DNA of 64,000 nt from Tautonia marina (GTDB lineage: Bacteria; Planctomycetota; Planctomycetia; Isosphaerales; Isosphaeraceae): assembly GCF_009177065.1 (NCBI RefSeq), contig NZ_WEZF01000001.1, positions 558,001 to 622,000 on the forward strand. The letters run 5' to 3'. This document shows positions 3,229 to 4,863 of this stretch, in pieces. Numbering within the stretch: position 1 is the stretch's first letter; the number at the start of each line of letters is the position of its first letter. Position numbers and translations under genes: made by a program. Under the pieces are notes generated by a model that saw only the letters and a program-made list of their open reading frames with translations, was not told the origin of the DNA and made no database searches.

Positions 3229-4803
3229 ATGCATCTACCTCCTCGTAGCATGGGCAAGATCGAGGTTCACTCGCGGCAATCTGCGCTGGCCCGCCGCGTA
3301 GGTCTTCGAGCCTTGACGTTCATCCACACGGCCGAGGCCGGCGGGGCTGCCCTGTTCCTGGCCGCCACGATCGCTATCATCTGGGCCAATTCTCCGTGGC
3401 AAGAATCTTATGAAAAGATCTTTCATACGCCGGTTGAATTAACTGTTGGCGCCTTTTCGTTCGCTCCTCCCTCCGATCAGGCCGAGGGGCACGCAGAGGA
3501 GCACGGCCACGAGGAGGAAGGCGGCCACGAGGACGAGCCGGTCAATGAGCTTGTGTCCGCAAGTATCGGTGGGGCCGCGGCCTTGCCCCCCTCCGCCGCG
3601 ACCGAGTCGGCGGCCACCGTTGCAGACGATCATGCCGATGATCATCGTATGAACCTGCATCACTGGATCAACGACGGCTTGATGGTCCTTTTCTTCTTCG
3701 TGGTGGGCCTGGAGATCAAGCGAGAACTGGTGCTGGGCGAGCTGGCCAGCTTCCGGAAAGCGGCCCTCCCGGCCGCGCTGGCCCTGGGAGGAATGATCGT
3801 TCCGGCGGCCATCTATGCCGTGATCAACACGGCCCCCGGCGGCGTCTCGCGCGGCTGGGGGGTGCCGATGGCAACGGATATCGCCTTTGCCATCGGCGTG
3901 CTCGCCTTGCTGGGCAATCGGGTGCCGAACTCGATACGGGTCTTGCTGCTCGCCTTTGCGATCGTCGACGACATCGGCGCGATCATGGTCATCGCCTTGT
4001 TCTACACCGAACAGATCTCGATGACGGCGCTGCTGCTGGCGGTGGCGATGGTCGGGGTGGTGGTCATCATGCAGCGCATTGGCGTGCTGGACATCTTCCC
4101 GTACATCCTGGTGGGCGGGGTTTTCTGGGCCCTGTTGCTCAGCTCGGGCGTGCACGCCACGATTGCGGGCGTGGTTCTGGGTCTGATGACCCCCTCGGTT
4201 CCCTGGCTGAATATGCAGCGGTATTCCGAGGAACTGGACCGGCTTCAGGCCGAGTACAACGAGGCGATGCGGGTGAAGAACGAGGACGAGGCCAGCTTCA
4301 TCCTCGGGAAGATCGAGCATCTGACCCAGATGACCGAGTCGATCCTCGATCGTCTGATCCGGTTCATCCACCCCTGGACGGCGTTTGTCGTCTTGCCGGT
4401 CTTCGCGCTGGCCAATGCCGGGGTGGTGATTAACGCCGAGAGCCTGAACGTGGCCCTCTCCAGCCCGGTTCTCTGGGGAGTGGCCCTTGGCCTGTTCCTC
4501 GGCAAGCCGATCGGCACGACGCTGATGGCCTGGCTCTGTGTCAAGTCGGGGTTGGTCTCCCTTCCCGAGGGAACGAACTTCCGGCAACTCTTTGGCATCG
4601 GGATGCTCGGTGCGATTGGCTTCACGGTGGCCCTGTTCATTACGGACCTGGCCTTCATCACGCCTGAGGATACCGACGCGGCGAAGCTCGGCATTCTCAT
4701 GGCCACGATCGCCGCGAGCGTCGTGGGATTGCTCTATCTCCGGTCCGTGCTTCCGAGTCGGATTGCAGATCAGATGACCCCGGCCGAGGCGGCCCATCAT
4801 TGA
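3229..4803 (+). CDS. nhaA: Na+/H+ antiporter NhaA with His/Glu-rich insert
   Basis: 524 residues, clearly longer than E. coli NhaA (388). Exchanges Na+ for H+ across the inner membrane for pH and sodium homeostasis. The ion-binding residues are present: D217 in MATDIAFAIG and the pair D247-D248 in AIVDDIGAI, at the same 30-31 residue spacing as D133 and D163/D164 of E. coli. Extra length comes from (1) residues 78-146, between the first and second membrane helix, with two His/acid-rich stretches (82-104 and 131-146) and an Ala/Pro-rich middle, and (2) a charged loop near residues 330-365. The start at 3229 has AAGGGAT upstream; an ATG at 3250 is an alternative without a ribosome site. A strong stem-loop follows the gene. 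Confidence 0.95.
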   Translation: MHLPPRSMGKIEVHSRQSALARRVGLRALTFIHTAEAGGAALFLAATIAIIWANSPWQESYEKIFHTPVELTVGAFSFAPPSDQAEGHAEEHGHEEEGGHEDEPVNELVSASIGGAAALPPSAATESAATVADDHADDHRMNLHHWINDGLMVLFFFVVGLEIKRELVLGELASFRKAALPAALALGGMIVPAAIYAVINTAPGGVSRGWGVPMATDIAFAIGVLALLGNRVPNSIRVLLLAFAIVDDIGAIMVIALFYTEQISMTALLLAVAMVGVVVIMQRIGVLDIFPYILVGGVFWALLLSSGVHATIAGVVLGLMTPSVPWLNMQRYSEELDRLQAEYNEAMRVKNEDEASFILGKIEHLTQMTESILDRLIRFIHPWTAFVVLPVFALANAGVVINAESLNVALSSPVLWGVALGLFLGKPIGTTLMAWLCVKSGLVSLPEGTNFRQLFGIGMLGAIGFTVALFITDLAFITPEDTDAAKLGILMATIAASVVGLLYLRSVLPSRIADQMTPAEAAHH

Positions 4804-4863
4804 TTGGCCGGTCCTCATGTGTTGCAAGAATGCAACCAGAACCGAGGGTCGTCGCTTGTCGAA

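Follow-up and report, generated by a model that had tools for sequence, protein, structure and literature searches.

An acidic, histidine-containing insert in the TM1-TM2 loop of Tautonia NhaA and its recurrence among planctomycete homologues

We suggest that the NhaA antiporter encoded in a 64,000-nucleotide stretch of the Tautonia marina genome (hereafter the window) carries, between transmembrane helices TM1 and TM2, an insert that works as a polyanionic brush, disordered and responsive to pH, close to the periplasmic mouth and to the dimer hairpin. This is the reading we favour, with a probability of roughly 40%. The protein has an intact transport core, the insert is strongly acidic, contains His and is predicted to be disordered, and loops of the same kind recur in separate lineages; an antenna or buffer action, and any effect of the insert on transport, are what it may add to these. 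More generally, disordered His/acid polyampholytes may have arisen repeatedly in the periplasmic TM1-TM2 loop of planctomycete NhaA and may regulate Na+/H+ exchange in response to pH or metal, a wider proposal which we hold a little more tentatively.

The window gene is a bona fide NhaA with an ordinary transport core. Its product matches Pfam PF06965 with an E-value of 1e-137 (459 bits, cut-off 23.5) and NCBIfam TIGR00773 with 392 bits (cut-off 254), and its sequence also matches E. coli NhaA chains of known structure. In Foldseek searches with the model of the window protein the best matches were all NhaA structures (E 2.9e-23), and the top 12 PDB matches consisted of NhaA only, with TM-scores to the target of 0.89-0.93. 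The AlphaFold2 model (pTM 0.82) predicts well both the 12-helix core, most of which has pLDDT >90, and the TM1-TM2 beta-hairpin. The features that concern us here, in window coordinates, are as follows.

3229..4803, + strand: nhaA, Na+/H+ antiporter of 524 aa (PF06965, TIGR00773, Foldseek)
3439..3462, + strand: TM1-TM2 beta-hairpin LTVGAFSF, strands 71-73 and 76-78, kept before the insert (AlphaFold2 secondary structure; aligned with E. coli PVQLRVGSLEI)
3463..3648, + strand: insert A79-R140, 62 aa, acidic, His-containing, free of Lys and Cys, predicted disordered (loop census, pLDDT, composition)
3496..3538, + strand: 18-bp imperfect tandem repeat of 2.4 copies, unit GAGGAGCACGGCCACGAG (Tandem Repeats Finder)
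3649..3666, + strand: MNLHHW, conserved start of TM2, outside the insert (four-congener alignment and column statistics)
3877..3879, + strand: D217, equivalent of E. coli D133 (alignment, homologue conservation)
3967..3972, + strand: D247-D248, equivalent of the E. coli D163-D164 ion site (alignment, homologue conservation)
4504..4506, + strand: K426, equivalent of E. coli K300 (homologue conservation)

An earlier note on this DNA had read the core ion site (D217, D247-D248) as intact, and so it proved: these three residues and K426 show no variation among 60 homologues. Membership of the NhaA family predicts pH-regulated exchange of Na+ (or Li+) for H+ by this protein. Compared with E. coli NhaA (PF06965, TIGR00773; 4au5, 7s24, 8ps0), it shares the fold, the TM1-TM2 beta-hairpin (periplasmic in E. 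coli) and the equivalents of D133, D163, D164 and K300, and differs in the 62-aa acidic, His-containing disordered insert that follows the hairpin and in a longer cytoplasmic VIII-IX loop (59 vs 18 aa), the latter being common among homologues. The insert is not a pseudo-insert produced by a frameshift or a wrong start, as four genomes carry it in frame and share the start MHLPPRS. An antisense ORF (3439-4827, - strand) lies opposite a high-GC gene and was treated as a shadow ORF, and a viral origin was rejected, as none of the viral contigs held a relative.

The earlier note had also placed a His- and acid-rich insert, absent from E. coli NhaA, between the first two helices, and this is borne out: the span from N54 to just before W146 comprises 92 aa, whereas E. 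coli NhaA has 32 and the majority of homologues 31. Its extent had been given as residues 78-146 (nt 3460-3666), however, and the true insert is shorter (A79-R140), because MNLHHW (141-146) aligns with E. coli NMLLW and belongs to the conserved start of TM2. The insert thus begins directly after hairpin strand 2 and ends where TM2 begins (AlphaFold2, alignment), and pLDDT falls below 50 for residues 82-138. Among its 62 residues are 16 D/E, 6 His, 1 R, 0 K and 0 C, in agreement with the richness in His and acidic residues first noticed. The 18-bp DNA repeat falls in the most His/Glu-rich section, its unit encoding roughly EEHGHE, and points to local repeat expansion behind the insert.

The insert probably lies on the periplasmic side, as had been claimed before, by homology to E. 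coli NhaA, in which the TM1-TM2 beta-hairpin lies in the periplasm and contributes to the dimer interface (PMC13408996). The charge pattern agrees with such a placement: the TM1-TM2 loop has 2 K/R in 89 residues, the cytoplasmic VIII-IX loop of the same protein 6 in 59.

His makes up 9.7% of the insert (6/62), compared with 2.23% in 613 proteins sampled from 864 kb of the window genome (G000) with simple gene calls (binomial P about 0.002). As this test was post hoc, the His signal from the window protein alone is moderate. Among composition-matched, disordered-like windows of this genome, which average 1.26 His per 62 aa, 0.6% reach 6 His; when the 613 proteins are ranked by the His content of an acid-rich 60-aa window, the insert comes second. 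A general His-rich habit of the genome was ruled out by such protein-wide ranking both here and in a second genome, G647 (400 kb, 286 proteins, simple gene calls), where the NhaA loop of locus L270 is the most His/acid-rich window of the 286 proteins, with 12 His vs 7 for the next.

All four genomes of the genus Tautonia carry the insert. The earlier note had held that a lack of His enrichment in close relatives would speak against its idea, and on this point the genus is divided: the four inserts contain 6, 7, 3 and 2 His (P 0.002, 0.0005, 0.12 and 0.35), so that two congeners are clearly enriched and two are not, and the His positions shift among them with no conserved His cluster. Net charge without His is -15, -13, -11 and -7, respectively, and both Lys and Cys are absent from every one. 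The steady traits of the insert in Tautonia are therefore its acidity and its freedom from Lys and Cys, and not its His. In the NhaA proteins recovered from other genera of the family the insert was not found and the loop was of ordinary length. G001 and G002, whose inserts are His-poorer, also have a further, divergent NhaA whose loop is short, and no such copy was seen in G000 and G003, whose inserts are His-richer; this pattern consists of two pairs only, which are phylogenetically linked.

The insert evolves quickly. In the closest species pair it is 67% identical, vs 92% for the core, with dN/dS of about 0.33 vs 0.08. Such fast evolution, together with loop lengths that range from 17 to 144 aa across the census and the core tree described below, short DNA tandem repeats in the inserts of the window protein and L270, and the predicted disorder, is also what would be expected of a weakly constrained filler with no specific role, grown by repeat slippage at a hairpin-TM2 site that tolerates insertions. 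The periplasmic side would then select against K/R and Cys, leaving low-complexity sequence made of A/G/P/S/D/E/H. Further to that, E. coli NhaA can do without the hairpin for antiport, monomers in which it is disrupted retaining activity (PMC13408996), and owing to this and to the fast sequence change we place the filler explanation only a little behind the brush, as possible though on balance doubtful. Mere tolerance does not predict an approximately 4-fold His enrichment in separate lineages, nor the excess of His over composition-matched windows, and dN/dS of the insert between the closest species is still below 1.

Recurrence in other lineages suggests that the loop does something. The census started from the hypothesis of a His-rich loop at this position and counted all homologues found; the loop was extracted from 188, later 232, NhaA homologues, with 40 aa or more taken as long. 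Long loops appeared in a handful of genomes at first and, after targeted searches with divergent members, turned out to be common in one clade. A TM1-TM2 loop of at least 40 aa is present in 32/232 homologues and is nearly always His/acid-rich, which makes the case stronger than the earlier note had it; all 32 are from Planctomycetota, a label that may be too narrow, since outside the phylum the sampling covered 80 loci closely similar to the window protein. Pooled, these loops contain 11.9% His (background 2.2-2.5%), 17.8% D+E, 3.1% K+R and 0 Cys in 2232 residues. When the conserved flanks are trimmed from the 22 longest, the values become 9.2% His, 23.4% D+E, 2.9% K+R and 0 Cys, with His in single members ranging from 2.9 to 17.3% of insert-only residues.

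Most of the long loops belong to a divergent planctomycete NhaA clade (e.g. L270, L200, L186) which resembles the window protein in carrying a His/acid-rich loop at the same place while keeping the ATD and ADD ion-site motifs. Members of this clade pass Pfam and miss the TIGR00773 equivalog cut-off, share about 35% identity with the window protein, have loops of up to 144 aa and probably represent a separate origin. The L270 loop carries repeats such as GHGDAGHGDDGH; the loops of L270, L265, L268 and L272 are up to 144 aa long with up to 15 His, encoded in part by 15-bp DNA tandem repeats.

In a tree built on the NhaA core only, Tautonia, a protein from a Phycisphaera MAG (L037) and the divergent clade stand apart, and we infer from their placement that the long loop probably arose at least three times. 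Under parsimony this tree requires the loop to switch between long and short 10 times, an earlier, smaller tree having given 6. SH-aLRT supports, taken from a quick search, are 100 for the Tautonia group and 100 for the split of the two clades, while deep placements are not firm.

Two comparisons served as internal controls. Long inserts at other sites of these proteins show no such richness in His (2.8% His in the cytoplasmic VIII-IX loop, 2.2% in the periplasmic III-IV loop). Across the family, short, ordinary TM1-TM2 loops themselves have a mean His content of about 8%, so the inserts enlarge a region that is His-bearing to begin with. His in the short loops is concentrated at positions equivalent to E. 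coli 39, 40, 43, 60 and 61 (26-53% per position), with 39% of homologues having His at 60 and 53% at 61; of these five positions, E. coli NhaA itself has His only at 39.

Supporting the brush are the disorder beside an ordered core, the net charge of -15 to -7, the recurrence, and the restriction of His enrichment to TM1-TM2 inserts. NhaA moves Na+ out of the cell and takes up protons from the periplasm, and the pKa of His lies near 6-6.5. Asp and Glu would hold a disordered extension at the periplasmic face strongly negative, and its His would alter the charge with periplasmic pH. Placed by the TM2-lined periplasmic funnel and the dimer hairpin, such a brush would locally concentrate and buffer protons and Na+, would help the antiporter to capture periplasmic protons and could change dimer behaviour by way of the hairpin. 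In E. coli NhaA both funnels are lined by TM2, and the tilt of the hairpin changes with pH (PMC13408996).

Several points stand against the brush. The insert evolves fast, two of the four congeners have few His, and most NhaA have no insert at all; a disordered loop may also lie away from the funnel. NhaA is needed most under alkaline conditions, in which His and carboxylates have for the most part lost their protons. The activity of hairpin-disrupted E. coli monomers also counts against it, as it makes the region dispensable for catalysis in that species.

Clusters of His and acidic residues might instead bind Zn, Ni, Co or Cu in the periplasm, buffering the metal or gating the antiporter by occupancy. 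Patterns such as HxH, HGH, DDHADDH and GHGDD-like motifs occur in the loops of several lineages, and the only protein exceeding the insert for His in an acid-rich window of the 864-kb sample is a DHDHDHDHDHDH lipoprotein which is metal-binding by its looks. ZIP and CDF metal transporters have His-rich loops proposed to bind metal; these are likewise low-complexity His clusters in a transporter loop, but belong to other transporter families, and the window insert has nearly three acidic residues to every His. The insert also has no Cys, its His spacing is not conserved, and two congeners have few His. The genes next to nhaA in Tautonia (ADH, YceI, MarR, a PEP-CTERM protein and a Ser/Thr kinase) include none for metal handling. 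Taken together, we regard metal binding as unlikely. The four Tautonia loci are syntenic; clustering of neighbouring ORFs was confounded by shadow ORFs and yielded nothing further usable.

The position of the insert directly after hairpin strand 2 raises another option, that the extension acts through the adjoining hairpin on dimer stability or lipid binding. Mammalian endosomal NHE9 has a TM2-TM3 extension of ~60 residues which folds as a beta-hairpin and whose Lys residues bind PIP2 (PMC11953442); it resembles the window insert in length and in its topologically equivalent extracytoplasmic loop beside the dimer interface, and the hairpin has been proposed as a carrier of allostery in E. coli NhaA (PMC13408996). 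In contrast to the NHE9 extension, the window insert is anionic and Lys-free, so that it would repel anionic lipid and the PIP2/Lys mechanism is not the one at work here; it is also predicted to be disordered rather than to extend the hairpin. An NHE9-type lipid-binding loop was thus ruled out, and we consider action on the dimer or lipids by such a route improbable. The computed evidence is compatible with the brush, filler, metal and dimer readings alike, and equally so with the proton-antenna, pH-sensor and metal-binding roles put forward in the earlier note.

In NhaA, which serves as the reference among Na+/H+ antiporters, the known pH sensor faces the cytoplasm. The window protein is a known transporter with a new loop variant: the open-licence literature yielded no published report of a His-rich NhaA loop, in line with the earlier note, which knew of none. 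If the proposed role is true, the insert would be a regulatory element of a kind not described for NhaA. A recurrent, probably periplasmic His/acid-rich loop that many planctomycetes have by nature and their relatives do not amounts to a natural experiment on control by external pH, cation or metal, and its separate origins make regulation by the loop testable beyond correlation.

Two side observations concern His elsewhere. A small lipoprotein in the window genome (contig C2, L236:10453-11013, + strand; MKPIARSLALLAALAGC-ADDHDHDHDHDHDHAAHLD...) has a His/Asp repeat directly after the lipobox and is followed by a gene resembling a permease; a Pfam search gave no match, and it looks like a candidate metal-binding lipoprotein. 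Several NhaA proteins end in His, the window protein with AEAAHH (4783-4800) and its relatives L188 and L187 likewise, such endings including TGDTGHH and NDHGH; the C-terminus of these proteins is presumably cytoplasmic.
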